In this document: piece after piece, positions 2,904 through 33,455 of the stretch
Layout of the letters: every line of letters starts with the position of its first letter
Numbering within the stretch: position 1 is the stretch's first letter
From: a virus
Direction: 5' to 3' (one strand)
DNA length: 64,000 nt
Virus record (IMG/VR): IMGVR_UViG_3300009506_000013
Span: 1-64,000 of that record
Translations under genes and position numbers: made by a program
Notes under the pieces: model-generated
What the model was told of the DNA's origin: nothing
Database searches by the model: none
The model's input: only the letters and a program-made list of their open reading frames with translations

Positions 2904-3356
2904 TCAAGGGTATAATCGCCCACGGATACCCCTAAAAAACCATTTTAGAGCATGTCGTATGTGAAAAAAGGGTAAAATCCGGCCCCTATTCTGGCCCATT
3001 TCGGCTAAAATCCCGGCTATGTCCGGAGATTCCCACCCTTCCGGCTTCAAAATCTTACCATCACCCCGTTTTGGCCCCCCGGTTTTTCGCATATTGGCCC
3101 GGTGGACTTCGGCAAAGAATGGATCCAAATTCACCCCCCACGACACGAAAGATCCCAAGACCACATAAATCAAATCGCATCCCCCGTCGATTGCCGCAGG
3201 CATATCCCTCTGGTCAATCGCCTCCAAAAGCTCCCGGCACTCCTCTTCAATCAAAGACTTTCTCAACTCCACAAATGCAAAGTTGGCTCCATAGCGCTGA
3301 ACCATTAGGCCGAACTTTTCGTGAAACCTTTGGACCTTCCGTTGCCACTTATTCAT
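2904..3356 (-). CDS. MazG/PRA-PH-like nucleotide pyrophosphohydrolase
   Basis: 150 residues. The helical EEECRELLEAI motif followed by DGGCDLIYVVLGSF matches the metal-binding EExxE...ExxD pattern of the all-alpha NTP pyrophosphohydrolases (MazG, PRA-PH). The tail FAEVHRANMRK and KPEGWESPDI is seen in phage members of that family. It probably hydrolyses non-canonical or excess nucleoside triphosphates. It overlaps the upstream gene by eight bases. Substrate unknown. Confidence 0.8.
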   Translation of the reverse strand: MNKWQRKVQRFHEKFGLMVQRYGANFAFVELRKSLIEEECRELLEAIDQRDMPAAIDGGCDLIYVVLGSFVSWGVNLDPFFAEVHRANMRKTGGPKRGDGKILKPEGWESPDIAGILAEMGQNRGRILPFFHIRHALKWFFRGIRGRLYP

Positions 3357-8812: not shown

Positions 8813-9712
8813 CTAGACTATCCCTGTATCAAAGTTTATTTGCATCTCTGCGTTCCGGAAAGGAGCGCCAATTTTGTTCTTCTTATTCGAGATGCGTGAA
8901 GTAATACCTGTTGCCTTTTGGCCAGTCTTATTAGTGCGAACCCGCTTAACAAAGACGCGGGATGAGAAGTAAAAATTCTTGGCCCTTCCGCCCGGTGTCC
9001 CTTCTTTGGCTCCGAAGAGTACACCAATTTTATCCCGTAGCTGGTTGATAAAGATACATGCGGTTTGCGTCTGGAGCATCGCAGTATGAAACTTCGGCAT
9101 GTTTACTGCCATCGCCCGCGCCAAAGCCCCAACACTCCGCTCCCCATAATCCCCTTCCAGCTGTTCCCTTGGAAGCAAAGCCGCTACACTATCTACAACT
9201 AGCAGTTGAGGCGTTTGATACATTGACCAGCTCTGCCGCACCATAGCCTCGTATTTTTTGAACTGCTGATCTACGCTGTCGGCAATCATCTCTGGCCCGG
9301 TCTTCTTGTCCACCTCATATGCAGATTCGACAATGATTAGCTGTTTAGGATCCAGCCCTTGCTTCGATGCCCATACAGTATCAAAGCTATGTTCGATATC
9401 GGCGAGCCAAGTGATGTACCCGGCCTGTTGTGCCCATGCTATAAGGGCATAGGCCAATGTACTCTTCCCGGCAGACTCATCGCCGGCAATCTCTGTATAA
9501 TAGCCACAGGGAATACCGAAGGCCTCATGACCAAGAACTTCGTTGAACAACCCGACATCGATCCAGTTTTTAATCCTCGAAATCATGTAGTCTGGATCAT
9601 CGCCAGGAATATTAACCGCCCCCACACCACCAAACGATTTGGCAACTGCGTTTGCGAGTTTGTGTATGTCTATGGTCTTGGTTTTCTTTGAGGCCTTCGG
9701 TGGTTGCTTCAT
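8813..9712 (-). CDS. RecA-like recombinase
   Basis: 299 residues. Walker A GDESAGKST (77-85), Walker B LLVVDSVAALL, the L1-like region YGERSVGALARAMAVNMP and the FINQLRDKIGVLFG block with GTPGG and an asparagine-rich end are RecA core features. It lacks the large C-terminal domain of bacterial RecA, as phage RecAs often do. It forms a recombination set with SSB, SbcC/SbcD and the PDDEXK nuclease. Confidence 0.95.
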   Translation of the reverse strand: MKQPPKASKKTKTIDIHKLANAVAKSFGGVGAVNIPGDDPDYMISRIKNWIDVGLFNEVLGHEAFGIPCGYYTEIAGDESAGKSTLAYALIAWAQQAGYITWLADIEHSFDTVWASKQGLDPKQLIIVESAYEVDKKTGPEMIADSVDQQFKKYEAMVRQSWSMYQTPQLLVVDSVAALLPREQLEGDYGERSVGALARAMAVNMPKFHTAMLQTQTACIFINQLRDKIGVLFGAKEGTPGGRAKNFYFSSRVFVKRVRTNKTGQKATGITSRISNKKNKIGAPFRNAEMQINFDTGIV

Positions 9713-9733: not shown

Positions 9734-10891
9734 TTACTTCTTTTTAGCTGGTGGCCGACGCGGTGGAGTCTTCTTACCGCCCGTTGCCGGCTTGGCTGGT
9801 GGTTTAGCTGGTGGCCTCTTCGGAGGAGTCTTGGCCGCAGGAGGTGCTGTCTTCCCTGCTGGCTTTGCCGGTGGCCGCTTCGGAGGAGGTGGCGGTGGAG
9901 GAGGATCAGTTGCGACTTCCGCCGCCCCATCACCATCCCACTCGCCCGCTCCGCCGCTATCACCACCCCACTCGCCGCCACCATCGCCGCCATCGAACGG
10001 AGGATCAGCCGGTTCAGTCTCGACAGTTTCCGTTCCGGCATTCTCCCAATCCTCTGCGCCGCCTCCAGCAGAAACCTCTTCCGTTCCCCCGAAGCCATCA
10101 TCTGCTCCAGCATAGGCAGCATCATCTACATACTCCCCGCCTTCACCCGCGCCTTCAGTATCGCCCCAGACCTCCATGTGATAGGCCTCATCATAGTTGC
10201 CCAAAGCCTTTCCCAAATCAGGAAGTTTGAAAGTTTGAATCCGCTTATCGGGCATGGGAACGCCGATCACAAAGTTGCCCTCTGGATCTTGATAATATGA
10301 ACCGTCTGGATTCTTTTTGATCTTTATTGGAAATTCGTTCCGGCTGGTAGAAAAGCCCTTCTGGATGTTAACGTCTTGGACGCCTCCACGGATGCTCCGT
10401 GGCTCTTTAATTATCAGCAAGTTGATTAGAAGCCCGTGCTCAAACTGGAACACGGATGCCCCATATTCATCTGGCTTCGAGAACAGGTTGATAAGCGCAG
10501 ACCAGGTACCACAGTTCTGGGTGTCCTTCGGCTCGAAGAGTTGAGGCCCCTTCGCCCGGTCATCCCAGTCAATAATGTACATGTACACTTTCCGCTTCCG
10601 GCTTGCGTCCCGAACAAACTGGATATCTGATTTGTCTTCGCTATGAGCAAGCTCCCCCAAGCGCTGACAGGTATAGCAGTCATCTTCCCCGCATACCAAC
10701 ACTTTCGTGCTGTCTCCGGCTGGGACATAATGAACGTGACCCTCTACCCAACAAGGGATGCTACCGGGCCATTCCAGTATTCGCAACCTTGCTTCTTGAC
10801 CGTTTGGTGGCTGATAAAAATCCTTCTTGCCGCGCTCCTGCTCTCCGGCCCGTTTGGATTCCTCAGCATAGTCCTGCAATGTTTTGGTCAA
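9734..10891 (-). CDS. gp32-type single-stranded DNA-binding protein with basic tail
   Basis: 385 residues from a TTG start after AAAGGAG. The core (about 1-235) has the HVHYVP...CGEDDCYTC zinc motif of T4 gp32-like phage SSBs and aromatic residues for base stacking. Residues about 240-315 are very acidic and glycine-rich, as in SSB partner-binding tails. Unusually this is followed by eight prolines and a lysine/proline/alanine-rich tail with RPPAK and KPAK repeats, resembling histone H1 tails. Typical SSBs end acidic. Replication and recombination role by family. Confidence 0.85.
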   Translation of the reverse strand: MTKTLQDYAEESKRAGEQERGKKDFYQPPNGQEARLRILEWPGSIPCWVEGHVHYVPAGDSTKVLVCGEDDCYTCQRLGELAHSEDKSDIQFVRDASRKRKVYMYIIDWDDRAKGPQLFEPKDTQNCGTWSALINLFSKPDEYGASVFQFEHGLLINLLIIKEPRSIRGGVQDVNIQKGFSTSRNEFPIKIKKNPDGSYYQDPEGNFVIGVPMPDKRIQTFKLPDLGKALGNYDEAYHMEVWGDTEGAGEGGEYVDDAAYAGADDGFGGTEEVSAGGGAEDWENAGTETVETEPADPPFDGGDGGGEWGGDSGGAGEWDGDGAAEVATDPPPPPPPPKRPPAKPAGKTAPPAAKTPPKRPPAKPPAKPATGGKKTPPRRPPAKKK

Positions 10892-11639: not shown

Positions 11640-14600
11640 TTATTTGTATAATTTTTTAACCATATCAGCAAAGACTTCCACCGCCCGGCAGAAGGCCTGA
11701 TTGGTCGATGCATCATACATCGTAGCAGCAGGGTGAAGACAATACACCACCCAGCAAGCATACTTAGGACTCCAAATCACCTTCCCGTTCAACTCAGTAA
11801 TTTTCGCCCCCTTTATAAAAAACTCAGCAGCCACTCCTCCAGCCGCCAACACTACCATAGGCCGAATCATCTTCAGCTCCTTATCTAACCAAATAGATGA
11901 ACACTTCTTTGGATATATGGCGCTAGGAATTTTGTTATTTGGCGGACGGCACTTCAATACATTGTTCACATGAACGCGTGTTCTCGGAATACCACCCCGG
12001 TTCAGTAGTTCATTCCAGATCTTTTTGCCCGACTTACCAATCAGCCCAATTCCTTTCTCATCTTCAGAGGCACCCGGTGATTCCGCCACAACCATCGCAT
12101 CATACAGCCCACGGCTTGGCCGCACCGGGGCAGTACAACCCTGCCGCAACTTACATTCTGTACACTCCAATACCTCATCATCAAACGGCCCACTCTCCTC
12201 CTCGCACCTATTACCTAGAGTAATGGCAGGAAGAAAGGCTTGGTTCACTTCTCCTATTAGCTCTTCCAAAAATAGGATCTTATGGGCCACGAGTTTCAAG
12301 TCCACTCCCCCTCTTTTATCTGGCGCAACCTTCGCCCGTATCAACACCCAGCAGTTCTCAGCAGTCTCGATTTTTTTCTTGACATCGGTATCGCTCACGC
12401 CATGAGTACACCTGTGATCAAAAGTAATCATCATCTGGTTCTGGCCATCGAAAAAGTTCCCATATGCTCCTCCCAAATCGCCGCCACCCCGCTTATCAGT
12501 AACATGGTCCCGATAGGAATACTTGATCTTGTCGATGCGCCCTATGAAATTGTGATCTCCTTTTATCTCCCGACGCAACACAGACCGAAGTGTGCTGATG
12601 GGAATTTTCTTCTTAATCCTCTTCACCAAGGCCGATATCTTATACAGCGGATCATCCGAAGGCCCAAAGTCCAACACATCCCCGACCAAGGCCAAGACTT
12701 CCTCTTTGCTATCCTTTGGATCCAGTACGCCGTTGCCGGCTAACACCTCATCAATATCCCGGCTACAAAGCACCCCAATACCCAACGAACGCAAGGCCCC
12801 ACTCAGTCCAAGGTTCTTCACCACCCTTTTATTGACGGTCTTTCTCGCCACATTCTCCAAGAAGCTATCCAATGAAGAGAAACAGCCCTTGGTGTTTACC
12901 TTCTTTCTGGCCTTGAGGATCTCTGCTCCAGACCGCTCTGAGATAGAAGTAATACTACTCAACCCGGCCCGTAGCACTCCCGGCTCCTCGATGGTCCATA
13001 TGTCGGCTGACTTGTTGATATCCGGCCATAGAACCTTGATCCCGTTCTTTCGGGCATCATCAACGTAGTCTGACTTGAACTCCGCTCTCGCATAGTTGAT
13101 AAGGGAACAATAGAACTCTGTCGGATAGTAGACTTTCAGCCACATGGTCCAGTAACCAATCTTTGTATACGCTACCGCATGGGACTTGTTAAAGCCATAG
13201 GAACCAAAGAACACCATCTTATCAAACACAGCGCTGGCCTCATCTTCGCTCATAGTCTTCAGCTTCCGACACCCATCCATGAACTCCTTTTTGAACCCGG
13301 CTATTTTTTCTGTCCCTTCGCTCTTGGATATCGCCTTCCGGATTGTATCCACCGTTCGCCAACCGATACCGGCGCCATGGTAGAGTACCTGCATAATCTG
13401 CTCCTGGTAAAGCATGATGCCGAATGTATCCTTGGTGATCTTATCGTAAAAGCCTGAGACTGGAGTGACCTGCTTCCGCTTGTTCTTGATCTCCTTAAAT
13501 TCGTTTGTCATACCTGATTTTAGTGTGCCCGGCCTCCACAATGCATTTATATCAACCAAGTCTTTAAAGCTATTCACTCCGATCTCCCGGCAGAAAACAC
13601 CAAGCCCTGCCGTACCGAACTGGAACACCCCAACGGTATTCCCCCGGCTAAATTGCTCCAGAACTTTCTCATCATCCAGCCGGATCTTATCATAATCAAT
13701 CTTTACTCCCGGCCAGTTATACTCGATCAGCTCCTTTGCCCGGTTGAGAACAGTCAGCGTCGATAGCCCAAGGATATCCAGCTTCATTAACCCCCAGTCA
13801 TCAATATCCTTCTTGTCCCAGTTGATTGTCCGCACCCCATCCTTCGCATTGATAACAACACATCGTTCACCATCATACAATGGAGTCTTTGATATTACTA
13901 CACCAGCGGCATGGACGCCGCCCTGCCGGCAGATACCCTCCAAAGACTTTGCTACACTCACTACACGTGGATATTTTTTCGCAAATTCCTTACACTCTTG
14001 GAATGTAGTAAACGCATCCTCAATGGAGTAGTCTTCCCGCGCATCTCCTCCGCTCCGCTTGATGATGGCTTTGGCCGCCCGCCCAACCTCCTCATTAGAA
14101 ACGTTGAAAACTCTCGCGACATCCCGAAGAGTCTGCCGCCCGTGCATCTCGTTGAACGTCTTGATCTGAAGCACGTTCTTGTCTCCATATTCCTTCCGGA
14201 AGTAACTGATCACTTCATCGCGGCGGTCATCTTGGAAATCAACATCGATGTCAGGATAGTCAATGCGGCCCGGACTAATAAACCTTTCAAAGTTCAGGTT
14301 ATACTCCAACGGGTCAACATCCGTTATCTCCAAACAATAGGCCAGCAAGCTCCCCCCAACCGAACCACGGCCCGGTCCAACCATTATACCATTCTCCCGA
14401 CACCACCAGATAACATCCGTCAGCACAAGGAAGTACGCCGCAAAGCCCAGCGAGCATACCTGACCAATCTCATGTTCTAGCCGCGCCCGGTAGTCTTTCT
14501 TTCCGGCCAATCCTTTCTTCTTCAACCCAATCCAAGCCAGCTCATACACCAGTTTCTCAGCCCTCTTCTTCAGCCCAGCAAAGCGGGAAGGCATCGGCAG

Positions 14601-15428
14601 GTTCACATCAATCTTTTCCATATCAAAATTACATTTCTCCACCACCCGCTCTGTATTCGCCATCATCCATTGGGCATGCTTCGGGTTACACTTCGCCTCC
14701 ACGAGCGCATCATACATCTCCTTATCCGTCCGCAGCCAAAGATCCTTTACATCAAACCGCATCCGGTCCTTATCATCCCAACGCCGGTGACTGCCTACTG
14801 CGAGCGCCACCTCATGGGCGATGTGCTCCCCCTTATATATGTAGTGAACATCGTTGGTGACTATAATGGGGATGCGGGACTTGACATGAAGCTCTAATGC
14901 GCGGGTGTAGATTTCAGCTTGCGGCTTCCAATATAAGTATGGCTGTGTCTCGAAGTAAAAATCATTTCCCAGCTTCTTATACAGCCATTTACATACCTTC
15001 TCATATTCAGGATGCGATAGAAGGCCGGAGGTACATGCTGTCGATACCACAACATCCTCCAGGTTCCCCAGCTGATCCAAGGTTACACAAGGCCGATAGT
15101 AGAACTGATCTTGGTTCGCGACTGTTAGCGCGGCCATCATACTCTTCAACCCCGCATAACTCTTCGCCAACACCAAGGCATGATACCGCTTCAGCCCCTT
15201 CTCCTTTTTAAACTTCTCAACCACGTACATCTCGCAACCGACAATTGGTTTGATACCATTCTTCTTGCATTCCTTGTAAAATTTAACCGCTCCGTCAACA
15301 TTACCGTGGTTGGTCTGGGCCAAAGCCTTGAACCCAAGCTCTTTCGCTCTCTTCACCAAGTCTGGAGTCTTACAGATCCCATCCAAGGTGCTATAGTGAT
15401 CGTGTACATGTAGGTGTGTAAATTTCAT
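11640..15428 (-). CDS. dnaE: DNA polymerase III alpha subunit fused to a family-4 uracil-DNA glycosylase domain
   Basis: 1262 residues. The N-terminal PHP domain starts HLHVHDHYSTLDG. The family C polymerase active site PDIDVDF lies near residue 391, and fingers motifs such as FNKSHAVAYTKI follow. The last ~175 residues are a different domain: ECTEC, AESPGASEDEKG, then VNNVLKCRPPNNKIP, KKC and LHPAA. This is the four-cysteine, GEAPG-like and HP(S/A) pattern of iron-sulfur uracil-DNA glycosylase family 4. The frame is continuous, so the fusion is real. Replicative polymerase role is clear; the glycosylase may scan the template for uracil. SPO1 polymerase carries a related domain. Confidence 0.95.
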   Translation of the reverse strand: MKFTHLHVHDHYSTLDGICKTPDLVKRAKELGFKALAQTNHGNVDGAVKFYKECKKNGIKPIVGCEMYVVEKFKKEKGLKRYHALVLAKSYAGLKSMMAALTVANQDQFYYRPCVTLDQLGNLEDVVVSTACTSGLLSHPEYEKVCKWLYKKLGNDFYFETQPYLYWKPQAEIYTRALELHVKSRIPIIVTNDVHYIYKGEHIAHEVALAVGSHRRWDDKDRMRFDVKDLWLRTDKEMYDALVEAKCNPKHAQWMMANTERVVEKCNFDMEKIDVNLPMPSRFAGLKKRAEKLVYELAWIGLKKKGLAGKKDYRARLEHEIGQVCSLGFAAYFLVLTDVIWWCRENGIMVGPGRGSVGGSLLAYCLEITDVDPLEYNLNFERFISPGRIDYPDIDVDFQDDRRDEVISYFRKEYGDKNVLQIKTFNEMHGRQTLRDVARVFNVSNEEVGRAAKAIIKRSGGDAREDYSIEDAFTTFQECKEFAKKYPRVVSVAKSLEGICRQGGVHAAGVVISKTPLYDGERCVVINAKDGVRTINWDKKDIDDWGLMKLDILGLSTLTVLNRAKELIEYNWPGVKIDYDKIRLDDEKVLEQFSRGNTVGVFQFGTAGLGVFCREIGVNSFKDLVDINALWRPGTLKSGMTNEFKEIKNKRKQVTPVSGFYDKITKDTFGIMLYQEQIMQVLYHGAGIGWRTVDTIRKAISKSEGTEKIAGFKKEFMDGCRKLKTMSEDEASAVFDKMVFFGSYGFNKSHAVAYTKIGYWTMWLKVYYPTEFYCSLINYARAEFKSDYVDDARKNGIKVLWPDINKSADIWTIEEPGVLRAGLSSITSISERSGAEILKARKKVNTKGCFSSLDSFLENVARKTVNKRVVKNLGLSGALRSLGIGVLCSRDIDEVLAGNGVLDPKDSKEEVLALVGDVLDFGPSDDPLYKISALVKRIKKKIPISTLRSVLRREIKGDHNFIGRIDKIKYSYRDHVTDKRGGGDLGGAYGNFFDGQNQMMITFDHRCTHGVSDTDVKKKIETAENCWVLIRAKVAPDKRGGVDLKLVAHKILFLEELIGEVNQAFLPAITLGNRCEEESGPFDDEVLECTECKLRQGCTAPVRPSRGLYDAMVVAESPGASEDEKGIGLIGKSGKKIWNELLNRGGIPRTRVHVNNVLKCRPPNNKIPSAIYPKKCSSIWLDKELKMIRPMVVLAAGGVAAEFFIKGAKITELNGKVIWSPKYACWVVYCLHPAATMYDASTNQAFCRAVEVFADMVKKLYK

Positions 15429-16838: not shown

Positions 16839-17699
16839 CTACATAGTTTTGCCGTCTTTCGCGACAGGGTTGGCTTCGTGAGTGGTCTCCTCCCATATCG
16901 CCTTTATCTCATCCCGTGTCCGCGTACCAACAGCCGCAAACCCTCCAAATGATTCGCCTGTATCTGGATTGAATACATACTGCTGGATGGGGCAAGCCTT
17001 ATATCGCGGGAAGCAACAAGTACCCTGATTGACGCAATAGACTTCGATCCAGCCTCTGGTCCACGGATGGACCTTGTAGACTTCTGCCCGCATTCGGCGG
17101 AACACCTGCTGATATTCGCCTTGTGCGCGAGTACACAGCCTCACCTGAGCCATATCGCTCAACACCCGCAAGCTGATCTTGGCCACAATACTGGTAGTGA
17201 TCCCGTTTGATAGAGCAGAGCGGGCATCCTGATAATTCTCTCCGAATGATAACAGATCCAGATATGTGCGTTCATTCACAGCATAAACATCCTCGTAAAA
17301 ACCAGGTCGCTTCGCTCCTGCCGGGATGCTGTAGCCGTTGCCTGATGCGTCGATGGTCCTTTGGGCCTCTTGTGCGAAAGAAGCCACCGCTGCGTTTGCC
17401 TCCGGAGCGCCAAAGGCCGGATCATCCACCCCGGCCATAGTCCGCGTCCGGACAAATTGGTGTGTGAATACCCGACTGACGTTGGAGAGAAGGAATACAT
17501 AATCACAGAACTCCCAACTGCTCTTTATAGTATCCCGCATATAAGCCAGCTCTTCCAGTTTCTTTTCGTGGGGCCACGCGGCGATATCTGCCATAGTGCG
17601 CTCCCCCTTGAGCCTTGTCGCCTTGGTAAACAACAATAGGTCCAAAGCCCTTGGATTAAAGTCAATGATCTCTACTTTCGGCTGTACTATTCGTACCAT
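16839..17699 (-). CDS. divergent ThyX-family flavin-dependent thymidylate synthase
   Basis: 286 residues. The block DARSALSNGITTSIVAKISLR with RLCTRAQGE, and the upstream RVFTHQFVR, align with the conserved ThyX fold. The signature RHRxxSxxxxSxR is strongly altered at 84-96 (R-T-R-T-M-A-G-V-D-D-P-A-F): the histidine, both serines and the last arginine are lost. That suggests a changed substrate or reaction. Neighbouring FAD oxidoreductase, HAD, SDR and Nmad1-like genes fit a nucleotide-modification pathway; plain dTMP synthesis is the alternative. Confidence 0.85.
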   Translation of the reverse strand: MVRIVQPKVEIIDFNPRALDLLLFTKATRLKGERTMADIAAWPHEKKLEELAYMRDTIKSSWEFCDYVFLLSNVSRVFTHQFVRTRTMAGVDDPAFGAPEANAAVASFAQEAQRTIDASGNGYSIPAGAKRPGFYEDVYAVNERTYLDLLSFGENYQDARSALSNGITTSIVAKISLRVLSDMAQVRLCTRAQGEYQQVFRRMRAEVYKVHPWTRGWIEVYCVNQGTCCFPRYKACPIQQYVFNPDTGESFGGFAAVGTRTRDEIKAIWEETTHEANPVAKDGKTM

Positions 17700-17710
17700 A
17701 CATCTTCTCC

Positions 17711-18670
17711 TTATAGGTTCCCCAACCGCATGTCATAGTTGGACTGATTAATTAGTCTTCGAATCTGGAGTGCGTCATCGTACACATCGTCCAGCAGTAT
17801 ATTCCTCCAGACACTATACCTTCCCAATGAATATATATTATATTCCGCCGATAAGTCATATATGATTTTTTTCCGGAAGTCTTCTGTTATCGGCCTTATC
17901 TTTCCGGCTTGTTCTGTAACTAACCAATTGCCCCTTTGAATAAACCGGGACATCCCCAAAGCCTCCATTACATAAGCATAGTCGCTGGAATCCGGCTTCT
18001 CTATAAACTCCGCAATCACCTGGCTGCCTACGATGGAAACTCTATACGGACAACGGCCTGAATCCGGAAAGTACATAGTCTGATGAACGTCGCAATTCTC
18101 CAAGGCTACACGGGCAACCCAGATTTTCTTGATCCCGAACTTAGGAAGAGCAATAGAAGGCCAAACCATCCTCGCATTAACTGACATCGGAAGAGTAGAT
18201 ACAACTGGCTCATCTCCCCGCTCTACTTCTATCAGCTCATCAGCACACTCAGTAGAGGAAGTCAATATTGTATCCCGGCTAATAGCTTTCACAGGGGAAT
18301 CAAATTGTATCCGGCTCTTACACCGTTCCAACAGAGTGGCGTGAAAATTCTCCGGCGCAATATACCGCTCACAGTCCCCCAGATCGCCAATAGAGCGGTC
18401 ATAGTATCCGCCCGTCACCTTCCGCGAATACATGTTCAAAAATTGTATAGTTGGTTGACGGTATTCCTTTTCTTTATAGAAGATGGATTTGCGGACACGG
18501 ACCTTCTTAAATTCCATCCCACATATCCGCGCAATCTTATCGCTCCGGAAACGGAGCAAGGCCTTATGTAGCGGAATATCCTCCAGCGTTGCGGCCCGCT
18601 CAAAGACTATCGCATCCCCATTCAATATCGCCGCAATACACCCTGCCATTCCTGCACCTAGTATATACAT
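17711..18670 (-). CDS. FAD/NAD(P)-binding oxidoreductase
   Basis: 319 residues. The N-terminal YILGAGMAGCIAA is a dinucleotide-binding Rossmann motif, followed by an acidic residue at the end of the second strand (FERAA) that would bind the FAD ribose. Late STLPM and YSLGRYSVWRN resemble UDP-galactopyranose mutase or amine-oxidase-like flavoproteins, but no exact family is recognised. It is encoded just before ThyX. Its leader can fold into a pseudoknot. Confidence 0.75.
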   Translation of the reverse strand: MYILGAGMAGCIAAILNGDAIVFERAATLEDIPLHKALLRFRSDKIARICGMEFKKVRVRKSIFYKEKEYRQPTIQFLNMYSRKVTGGYYDRSIGDLGDCERYIAPENFHATLLERCKSRIQFDSPVKAISRDTILTSSTECADELIEVERGDEPVVSTLPMSVNARMVWPSIALPKFGIKKIWVARVALENCDVHQTMYFPDSGRCPYRVSIVGSQVIAEFIEKPDSSDYAYVMEALGMSRFIQRGNWLVTEQAGKIRPITEDFRKKIIYDLSAEYNIYSLGRYSVWRNILLDDVYDDALQIRRLINQSNYDMRLGNL

Positions 18671-30973: not shown

Positions 30974-31228
30974 CTATTTTTTACCCCCATCAACTGCTAA
31001 TTTCCTATGCTTTTTTGATGGTCTTCCCCGGTGTAAATTCCGGGCTTTTAGGGCCAGCACCTGCCGCATATCGTACAGCCGAATATGGCCATCATCGAAC
31101 ACAGGCACCAAATACCCCTTTAAAACATGGCTATCGATGGCGCTTGCTGAACAGCCGTATATCTCTGCCGCAGTCTTCCGGCTCACCAGCCGATTAATAT
31201 CAAACATCCTTCTCTTGAATCTCCTCAC
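30974..31228 (-). CDS. small helix-turn-helix (excisionase/MerR-like) protein
   Basis: 84 residues. RLVSRKTAAEIYGCSASAIDSHVLKGYLVPVFDDGHIRLYD has the winged-helix pattern of Xis/MerR-like DNA binders. It overlaps the primase by ATGA and stops just before the promoter gap, so it may regulate that promoter. Confidence 0.7.
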   Translation of the reverse strand: MRRFKRRMFDINRLVSRKTAAEIYGCSASAIDSHVLKGYLVPVFDDGHIRLYDMRQVLALKARNLHRGRPSKKHRKLAVDGGKK

Positions 31229-32097
31229 CTCAAAGCCTCCAAAATCTCCCGCTCATCCGTTTCAGCTGGATCCTTCCCCGATACCTGAACAATCCTGATC
31301 GGCCTTCGATGAAAGGATAACAGCTGTCTCATTTTTAACGCATCCAATTCCGCTTCCCGGTCCAGCATCACCACGAACCGGTCAAAGCCGGATACCAACG
31401 CCAATTTCTCGTGGCTGAGAACCTTCCCGCCGATAGCGACAGCCGCCCAATCAGCAAACATTCTATCATGCGCCAACGCACGATCAACCGCCAACTTATC
31501 GGCCCAACCTTCTACAAGCACCAAGGTGGAGGCGATGCCTGCCGCCTGGTCATAACCAAACAGCGCCTCAGCTGCCTTCGCTCCTACAGGGTGAAGAACC
31601 TTCCGCTCAGCTCTTCCTGTCCAATCCCGCGCAACGAAGCTCACCAACTCCCCGTCCAGCGTAATGGGTATTATCACCCTGTTTCTATATCTCCCAGTCG
31701 GACAAAATCCTATGGAATATTTTTGAATCTGGCCTACTGTGATCCTCCGGCCCAGCAGGTAGCGCATGGCTATCCCGGCAATAATACCGCGCCGGGGGAG
31801 TGCGAAATATTCCGAAGGCAAGCAAACATCCTTCTCTTTCTCCGGCTTCCACATTCCTCCCGGCAACTCGCCGGAAAGCATCCGCGCCTCACGGTAGCTG
31901 ATACGATTTAGCTTTACAAACAGCCCTGCTAACCGGCCCCGCTTCCCGCAACCGTGGCAGATGTAAACTTTCTTCCGTACATTAACGCAACAAGACGGTG
32001 TGCGCTCGTTGTGCCACGGGCAGAGTATGGTCCATTCTCCTCCTCCACTATGGCGTGCGTTTGGCTGTCCTGCGATAATCCGCTCTGCTTGATTCAT
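31225..32097 (-). CDS. DnaG-type DNA primase
   Basis: 290 residues. The zinc motif CPWHNERTPSCCVN followed by ICHGCGKRG (CHC2-like) and a Toprim region (LVLVEGWADKLAV with FVVMLDREAE) are present. The polymerase basic domain is short and the C-terminal helicase-binding domain is absent, as in compact phage primases. ATGA overlap with the helicase suggests they work together. Confidence 0.88.
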   Translation of the reverse strand: MNQAERIIAGQPNARHSGGGEWTILCPWHNERTPSCCVNVRKKVYICHGCGKRGRLAGLFVKLNRISYREARMLSGELPGGMWKPEKEKDVCLPSEYFALPRRGIIAGIAMRYLLGRRITVGQIQKYSIGFCPTGRYRNRVIIPITLDGELVSFVARDWTGRAERKVLHPVGAKAAEALFGYDQAAGIASTLVLVEGWADKLAVDRALAHDRMFADWAAVAIGGKVLSHEKLALVSGFDRFVVMLDREAELDALKMRQLLSFHRRPIRIVQVSGKDPAETDEREILEALR

Positions 32098-33455
32098 GGC
32101 TGTGCCTGATTCTGGGCGTAGGCCACCCCATCACTTAATCGCATCTCATGGAGACAGAATTGCATCCGCGAAAAATCCTGCTTCAGTAAGATGTCTCCAA
32201 CCTTCTGGCCAGCCGGTCCATGCCAATAACCATCTACATATAACCGCATTTCGTTGTTGTCATACTCCTCTGGCGTTTGGTTTAATGTAAGAATCAAGGA
32301 GGAGTGCTGGGCTGGCATCGAGCTTTCCTGTCCATCCTCCATATAGATCCGGAATTGTTTCCGCCTTTTTAATGGTGTCTGCTGGGCGGTAATGAGCACA
32401 ACATTCTCCCGTTGGGCCACGGCACGGGCGGTTGTGAATATCTCATCCCGCGAAGCTCTCATCCAAGCATCCCCGCCCCGCACTGAACTCTTCATCAGCT
32501 CCCCATAATCAACAATCACCACATCTATCCGCACCCCATCGCGGGCCAGCTGCTGGATATCGTTTTGAAGATCCTGGGGAGAGTAGGTCCGCGCCATCCG
32601 CCATAGGATATACAGCTTGGATTTGAACAGCTCTTTTAGATAACCAATTTGGTTTCCTAATTTGTCCATGAACGGCGTCAGCTCATCCTTTTCCATATTC
32701 GAGAACATGGAGTCATAGCGATCCTCTACCATCGCCCTCGAATTTTCCAGGCTGACATGGAGCACGTTGTGCCCTTGTAGAATTGCGCACTTGCCGGCGT
32801 GTTGTAAAAAGATGGACTTGCCCCGCTTGCTTGGCGCTATACAAAGACAGATCTCATCCCGGTGCGCAAATATTCCGTACTTCTCCAGCGTAGGAACCAT
32901 GAAACGGACTCCATCCTTTGACTTCGATTCCAGAATGCGCCGGAGTATGCGCTTGTTCACTGTTGTAAAATATTCTACAGGCCTCTCCAAATCATCCTTC
33001 TGGATCGCCTGTGCCCTGCTTACTGCTTCCGCCGCCGCATCTATATTCCCGGCCTCGATAGCTTCCCCCAATTCAATCTGAAGCCTCTTCAACTTCGCGA
33101 ACTGAAAGAACCTTTCGAGCTTTTGGGATATGTAGTATGCGTTGGTTGGTTCTTGAACAAGCTCAGCGCCTTTTCCTTTTAGAAGCTTGACGCGTGACTC
33201 ATTCATCCGCTCATCTTCGGCGGCATCCTGTATATAGGACAAGAACATGTCCTTGGCCACGAGGCCAGATTGGTCATAATAACGTCTTGCTAATTCTGCT
33301 AATGTAATGCGGAGTGTATCCCCGAATAGATCTGGGCTTAATAGTTGGCCATACTTCCTCATGAACTTAACATCAGTCAGCATCAAAGTCAGTACACCAT
33401 CGACAAACCCTTCGTCAAACCCTCTAAACGTGTCGCGTGTGTACTGTGTGGCCAT
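32094..33455 (-). CDS. DnaB-like replicative helicase
   Basis: 453 residues. A helical N-terminal domain is followed by the RecA-like core: APSKRGKS Walker A (about 203-210), LHVSLENSRAMVEDRYDSM, VDVVIVDYGEL Walker B and VLITAQQT. It unwinds DNA at the phage fork with the adjacent primase. Confidence 0.9.
   Translation of the reverse strand: MATQYTRDTFRGFDEGFVDGVLTLMLTDVKFMRKYGQLLSPDLFGDTLRITLAELARRYYDQSGLVAKDMFLSYIQDAAEDERMNESRVKLLKGKGAELVQEPTNAYYISQKLERFFQFAKLKRLQIELGEAIEAGNIDAAAEAVSRAQAIQKDDLERPVEYFTTVNKRILRRILESKSKDGVRFMVPTLEKYGIFAHRDEICLCIAPSKRGKSIFLQHAGKCAILQGHNVLHVSLENSRAMVEDRYDSMFSNMEKDELTPFMDKLGNQIGYLKELFKSKLYILWRMARTYSPQDLQNDIQQLARDGVRIDVVIVDYGELMKSSVRGGDAWMRASRDEIFTTARAVAQRENVVLITAQQTPLKRRKQFRIYMEDGQESSMPAQHSSLILTLNQTPEEYDNNEMRLYVDGYWHGPAGQKVGDILLKQDFSRMQFCLHEMRLSDGVAYAQNQAQP

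Follow-up and report, generated by a model that had tools for sequence, protein, structure and literature searches.

The stretch of viral DNA analysed here (the window: 64,000 nucleotides, positions 1 to 64,000 of IMG/VR record IMGVR_UViG_3300009506_000013, which is 81,032 bases long in all) carries on its minus strand a single unbroken reading frame in which a DnaE-type replicative DNA polymerase is joined to a C-terminal uracil-DNA glycosylase (UDG) domain. No match at the DNA level to known phages was obtained for the first 25 kb of the window. The open reading frame (ORF) and its parts are:

11640..15428, minus strand: fusion ORF, 1262 amino acids; DnaE-type replicative polymerase with C-terminal UDG domain
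14943..15416, minus strand: PHP domain, residues 5-162 (Pfam E 4e-34); its metal ligands extend to residue 195
13767..14540, minus strand: polymerase core DNA_pol3_alpha, residues 297-554 (Pfam E 2e-79)
13263..13760, minus strand: finger domain, residues 557-722 (Pfam E 7e-40)
12780..13043, minus strand: helix-hairpin-helix (HhH) domain HHH_6, residues 796-883 (Pfam E 6e-16)
12270..12557, minus strand: beta-rich OB-like region, about residues 958-1053, between the HhH and UDG domains (strands in the AlphaFold2 model, model residues 73-168)
11685..12164, minus strand: family-4-type UDG domain, residues 1089-1248 (NCBIfam, structure model, residue mapping)

An earlier note, made from the sequence alone, had described a polymerase III alpha chain running in frame into a C-terminal UDG domain, and this was confirmed, as both parts were recognised by Pfam and NCBIfam in the one ORF. 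The DnaE model TIGR00594 scored 762.9 bits against a cut-off of 434, and the PHP, polymerase, finger and HhH domains follow one another in the order expected of DnaE. Alignment-based scans of viral contigs were used to find further fusions. They gave 47 rows of DnaE-UDG single ORFs, the window included, with 40 distinct UDG sequences and the UDG at the C-terminus in all; another 37 ORFs joined a UDG to a family A polymerase, always at the N-terminus. When the viral contigs were scanned using just the UDG of the window, no matches came back, and an alignment had to be used instead. Chance or misassembly as the source of the fusion was ruled out, because about 40 distinct viral sequences, from uncultivated phages, share it.

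The Pfam PHP, polymerase, finger and UDG families were matched in all 29 fused proteins tested. The catalytic aspartates D393, D395 and D551 (motifs PDIDxDF and KxDxLG) are present in the window protein and conserved in 29/29, and all nine PHP metal ligands (H7, H9, D16, H41, E66, H83, C132, D193 and H195) are in place and kept in 28 or 29 of the 29, the one exception being a gap. Since these residues are present and conserved across the fused set, both polymerisation and proofreading are probably functional, the PHP domain being a likely 3'-5' proofreading exonuclease.

The UDG domain was matched by TIGR00758 (UDG_fam4) at residues 1089-1248 with an E value of 4e-27, and by Pfam at residues 1112-1249 (E 5e-15). 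The UDG_fam4 score of 95.0 bits is under the curated cut-off of 125.3, so by sequence the domain is family-4-like and divergent and not a typical member. The nearest sequence with a solved structure was 1ui0, UDGa of Thermus thermophilus (E 5e-28). In an AlphaFold2 model of residues 886-1262 the UDG part was mainly above pLDDT 90, and a Foldseek search with this model gave 1ui0 as the top hit (E 3e-14) together with 1ui1, 4zbx (TM 0.86 over the target) and 1vk2, a ranking that places the fold in the UDG superfamily nearest to family 4. A full-length model of a relative, L030 (1116 amino acids), had a mean pLDDT of 87.5 and a pTM of 0.75.

Residues were mapped using the T. thermophilus UDGa numbering. 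The putative Fe-S (iron-sulfur) cysteines C1089, C1092, C1160 and C1176 correspond to C13, C16, C84 and C100, all four being present, and the active-site residues E1116, E1122, N1156, N1165 and H1232 correspond to E41, E47, N80, N89 and H155. Of six active-site residues checked, five are thus conserved; the sole change is that of F54 to L1129. Leucine is also found at this position in 10 of the 40 DnaE-linked domains and in the stand-alone UDG of MT836940. The four-cysteine, family-4-type domain proposed in the earlier note was therefore borne out by the mapped cysteines and the modelled fold, domain search and structural model giving the same answer, and the catalytic residues on which that proposal depended are present and essentially intact. 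Of the two motifs that had been named, HPA is there; the exact GEAPG is not, and the real motif is AESPG...ED.

Fused DnaE proteins are strongly clustered: on the DnaE tree the fused label takes three changes, a value as low being reached in 0 of 500 shuffles, and L042 pairs with the window (SH-aLRT 92%). On the UDG tree the intact DnaE-linked UDGs form a group with an SH-aLRT of 97, in which 32 of the 34 rows are DnaE-linked and the other two are a contig-edge fragment and a family A fusion. A second UDG tree, made with a mixture model, also takes three label changes, and the window falls in no starred branch.

Four DnaE proteins that lie inside the fused lineage (L111, L114, L115 and L119) stop just after the HhH domain, in ORFs without a UDG; no UDG was found when the whole L114 and L115 records were searched. 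From the sequences, it appears that in these four the entire C-terminus was lost together with the UDG. Two other DnaE phages, G025 and G026, have no fusion and a separate stand-alone UDG gene (L269 and L270, respectively) that is not close to the fused UDGs. The birth of the fusion from the stand-alone UDGs of the related unfused DnaE phages L118 and L124 was rejected, as these UDGs (L269 and L270) do not group with the fused ones. A cellular origin was rejected as well, as far as a scan with a single pattern goes: among the matches listed, the best 80 UDG relatives from bacterial and archaeal genomes, there was no polymerase fusion. A different fusion, of an apparent 5'-3' exonuclease (FEN-like by eye) with a C-terminal UDG domain, was seen in one ORF at L105:5170-6567.

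One of the scan patterns contained motif A, so that loci retrieved by UDG motifs are biased towards an intact motif A; conservation was therefore judged on the subset retrieved by DnaE patterns only (n = 11 intact-clade sequences). In this sample the four cysteines and E47 are kept in 11/11 and E41, N80 and H155 in 10/11 each, with only 15 of 152 columns invariant; as far as these sequences go, the catalytic set is mostly retained across the deep divergence of the fused phages. A second DnaE-UDG clade has a different pattern. There Asp takes the place of E41 in every member and Asn that of H155 in nearly every one (Ser in V1VFA-S); N80 has been lost, and some or all of the Fe-S cysteines are missing, while the fold and E47 are retained. 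The clade comprises the cultured Pseudomonas phage nickie (L271), Stenotrophomonas phage ANB28 (L272) and Rhizobium phage RHEph10 (L273), with L027 (V1VFA-S), L122, L123, L125, L129, L133, L134 and L148. As it lies on a long branch, its placement relative to the intact clade is tentative. Altered chemistry or binding, instead of simple decay, could lie behind the recurring Asp/Asn pattern.

The genes around the fusion are largely concerned with replication and recombination. Besides a PD-(D/E)XK nuclease and an SbcD-like protein, which together with RecA, the probable single-strand-binding protein (SSB) and ThyX are its neighbours, the following were identified:

8813..9712, minus strand: RecA (Pfam E 2e-50)
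9734..10891, minus strand: probable SSB; its one match is weak, to a PHROG with no assigned function, the SSB identity being presumed
16839..17699, minus strand: divergent ThyX, flavin-dependent thymidylate synthase family (Pfam Thy1 E 7e-23)
2904..3356, minus strand: MazG/PRA-PH-type nucleotide pyrophosphohydrolase, possibly for dUTP/dNTP clean-up
31225..32097, minus strand: DnaG-type primase
32094..33455, minus strand: DnaB-like replicative helicase

In relatives the neighbours are chiefly RecA, gp32-like SSB and clamp-loader ATPases; gp32-like proteins are common beside other DnaE-UDG genes, and RecA lies near the fusion in many relatives. Gene contents were counted in 20 intact fused-phage records, the window included, some of which may be fragments, so that absences are provisional. 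In each of the 20, as in the window record itself, the fused domain is the sole UDG. A trimeric dUTPase (PF00692) was matched in one of these records and in none of the other 19; therefore, uracil could accumulate. A delta-prime-type clamp loader (PF13177) is encoded by 13 of the 20, often adjoining the fusion. The window record gave no match to PF13177 or to the beta-clamp family PF00712.

Two further features of the window stand apart from the fusion. The protein encoded at 17711-18670 (minus strand), adjoining ThyX, begins with a GxGxxG nucleotide-binding motif and strongly matches PHROG 4828 (E 5e-72), a family with no assigned function; Pfam gave no match for it. Between 22705 and 30021 (minus strand) lie 14 self-cleaving ribozymes of the twister-P5 type (Rfam RF02684; 44.6-51.4 bits against a gathering score of 37.6), most of them a short way upstream of small genes in a single stretch. 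They came to notice because ORFs are extended by their translation as VGPERSGLNAL...; the set is possibly a transcript-processing array.

The explanation preferred, with moderate confidence, is that the protein is a family C, probably self-proofreading replicase with a tethered, catalytically competent Fe-S uracil glycosylase as its C-terminal module, so that copying and uracil removal may be combined in one molecule. The sequence and the model give the architecture, the intact polymerase, PHP and UDG residues, the confident family-4 fold and the conservation over a deep phage clade; uracil excision, work at the fork and repair completed by the host are what we infer. The polymerase would act at the fork while the tethered glycosylase scans nearby DNA; uracil arising from cytosine deamination or from dUTP incorporation would be cut out, and the abasic sites left behind would be dealt with by the apurinic/apyrimidinic (AP) endonuclease and ligase of the host. 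Excision behind the fork, or processing by the host, is assumed to evade abasic blocks in the template. In favour of this explanation are the Fe-S cysteines and the catalytic Glu, Asn and His of the window domain, their conservation in the 11 DnaE-pattern sequences, the grouping of the intact DnaE-linked UDGs on the first UDG tree, the fused domain being the sole UDG in each of the 20 records, the retained PHP ligands and polymerase aspartates, the replication and recombination genes (RecA, gp32-like SSB, clamp loader) among the neighbours, and the lack of a PF00692 match in 19 of the 20 records.

Several points weigh against it. Excision on the template ahead of the polymerase would itself create blocking abasic sites, and AP endonucleases of the EndoIV type (above the cut-off) and of the ExoIII type were found in 0 of 50 records, for which reason a complete phage-encoded repair pathway was rejected. 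The base-stacking Phe54 is replaced by Leu in the window domain; in the Sulfolobus tokodaii enzyme the equivalent Phe stacks on the base and an Asn bonds to its Watson-Crick face (PMC11078745). E41Q or H155N occurs in single fused lineages, and the grouping of the intact DnaE-linked UDGs is without starred support under the second tree model. Finally, the sister clade has the fold but not the canonical catalytic set, from which it follows that there is at least one non-canonical use of the domain. Because the altered clade retains the fold in this way, two readings in which the domain senses uracil or holds the polymerase on DNA stay alive.

On the first of these, which is regarded as unlikely, the domain would flip out uracil and bind it, or would mark template damage, and so halt or divert the polymerase, much as the read-ahead pocket does in archaeal family B polymerases; at the fork there would be little excision, if any. 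Abasic sites in the template would be avoided, and such a role fits the joining of UDGs to polymerases of the unrelated families C and A, C-terminally in the one and N-terminally in the other, as well as the retention of the fold and E47 in lineages with altered catalytic residues; it would not, however, need the Glu, Asn and His that are preserved across the deep intact clade. This conserved chemistry is likewise left unexplained if the UDG fold mainly serves as a processivity or DNA-tethering module in place of the usual DnaE C-terminal region, a proposal that ranks just below sensing. The UDG domain does take up the C-terminus of DnaE, nickie, ANB28 and RHEph10 retain a UDG-like region that has lost the canonical catalytic set, the window record is without a PF00712 or PF13177 match, and vaccinia D4 with A20 offers a precedent (PMC10253040), but the frequent presence of a clamp-loader gene in the other intact DnaE-UDG phages argues against a substitute for it.

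The earlier note had also considered a link to unusual bases plausible, and for this phage it was not supported: PF00303 (thymidylate synthase/hydroxymethylase), the gene looked for as a mark of a hydroxymethyluracil-type phage, had no match in the 81-kb record, which is possibly incomplete, and no modification gene was recognised among the window genes scanned. None of the 20 intact DnaE-UDG records, the window included, had PF00303 above the cut-off, whereas 7 of the 14 records with a family A UDG-polymerase did (Fisher p 6e-4, a value that is only a guide as the records are related by descent). ThyX is no more frequent in fused DnaE phages (7/20) than in unfused ones (5/12), and with neither PF00303 nor an enrichment of ThyX a thymine-modification link was rejected for this phage. 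It is therefore improbable that the window domain serves to recognise or tolerate modified thymine or uracil in phage DNA, or to remove a wrongly unmodified uracil precursor, even if the F54L change could shift base specificity. A modified-base role fits part of the family A group better. There, a PF00303 gene is found in the operon of the UDG-polymerase in PMBT14, Serbin and Manatee Spring phage; SP-15, which is among the fold matches, has a hypermodified thymine (PMC5977210); and the phiLo polymerase structure holds a 'modified template'. The UDG-family A polymerase operons of L009, L010 and L020 contain thymidylate kinase, NTP pyrophosphohydrolase and thymidylate synthase-type genes, which suggests a modified-thymine link in that group, and a deaminase gene was seen in the operons of PMBT14 and Serbin.

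A role directed at the host, in which the domain would shield phage DNA from uracil put in by deaminase-type defences, is very improbable. Uracil removal has a general fit to such a threat; no defence-linked neighbour was identified, though, the conserved neighbours being replication genes, and where UDG-superfamily enzymes are known to act in phage-host conflict they do so for the host (Brig1, PMC11078745).

A broader form of the preferred explanation, in which synthesis, PHP proofreading and fork-coupled uracil excision in one chain are specific to phages and arose separately in polymerase families C and A, and in which the sister lineage is a non-excising reader or one of altered specificity, is offered tentatively. 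If the domain is active, uracil removal is tied directly to the replicase in these phages, and the puzzle becomes how the polymerase escapes blockage by abasic sites made by its own domain. Three natural comparisons are at hand: the intact DnaE-UDG proteins, the altered DnaE-UDG clade with its cultured phages, and the family A UDG-polymerases with one structure. A uracil-handling replicase could also serve as a useful enzyme.

In the literature on phage UDG-polymerase fusions, covered mainly through freely accessible papers, no DnaE-UDG was found, and a survey of polymerase swapping in phages, published in 2024, has no mention of a glycosylase or UDG. No isolated phage with an intact DnaE-UDG was identified among the phage records searched, and no description was found of the large clade of DnaE proteins in which the UDG chemistry is intact. 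Already known are the UDG-family A phage polymerases, one of them solved, and a DnaE with a UDG-like note in a deposited record.

Of more distant systems, UdgX came up in Foldseek with a related Fe-S UDG fold. UdgX cross-links DNA via a histidine in its KRRIH insert, and no KRRIH motif is visible in the window domain. The D4 UDG of vaccinia, together with A20 and the viral polymerase, resembles the window protein in that a UDG is physically coupled to a viral replicase. D4 is a separate protein, however, a family 1 UDG without Fe-S working with a family B polymerase, and there is no homology of arrangement with the window fusion. Both repair and processivity roles have been proposed for D4 (PMC10253040). 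The family 4 UDGs (T. thermophilus UDGa 1UI0, S. tokodaii 4ZBX and Thermotoga maritima TM0511) have the fold, the four-cysteine cluster and the Glu, Asn and His seen in the window; they are stand-alone repair enzymes in which a Phe stacks on the base, whereas the window has Leu.

The related UDG domains that the earlier note had placed on family A phage polymerases are supported by the 37 ORFs and by the solved phiLo polymerase. Phages with such polymerases are phiLo, PMBT14, Serbin, STP12 and ctfzr933, with SP-15 and others by fold, and SPO1. The polymerase of Thermus phage phiLo (L268:16090-19617, annotated as 1175 amino acids) has an N-terminal UDG in which four cysteines and GEAPG/NHPS motifs are present; in the structure 9QHS, titled 'phiLo family-A DNA polymerase with modified template', the chain has 1142 amino acids. 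As in the window, polymerase and Fe-S family-4-like UDG are in one chain, but the UDG is N-terminal on a family A enzyme instead of C-terminal on a family C enzyme, and half of the family A set carries thymidylate-synthase/hydroxymethylase-type genes that the DnaE set is without. The UDG domains of phiLo and ctfzr933 look intact, whereas those of Serbin, PMBT14 and STP12 have kept the cysteines and His and are missing E41, F54 and N80.

The closest arrangement in cultured phages is a DnaE with a C-terminal UDG-like domain, present in the Pseudomonas phages nickie, hairong, ZY21, phiK7B1 and Nican01, the Rhizobium phages RHEph10, V1VFA-S and B1VFA, and Stenotrophomonas phage ANB28; the RHEph10 record is already annotated 'uracil-DNA glycosylase-like'. 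The cultured relatives checked have E41D and H155N (Ser in V1VFA-S), no N80 and few or none of the Fe-S cysteines in place of the full four, whereas the window domain keeps the canonical set.

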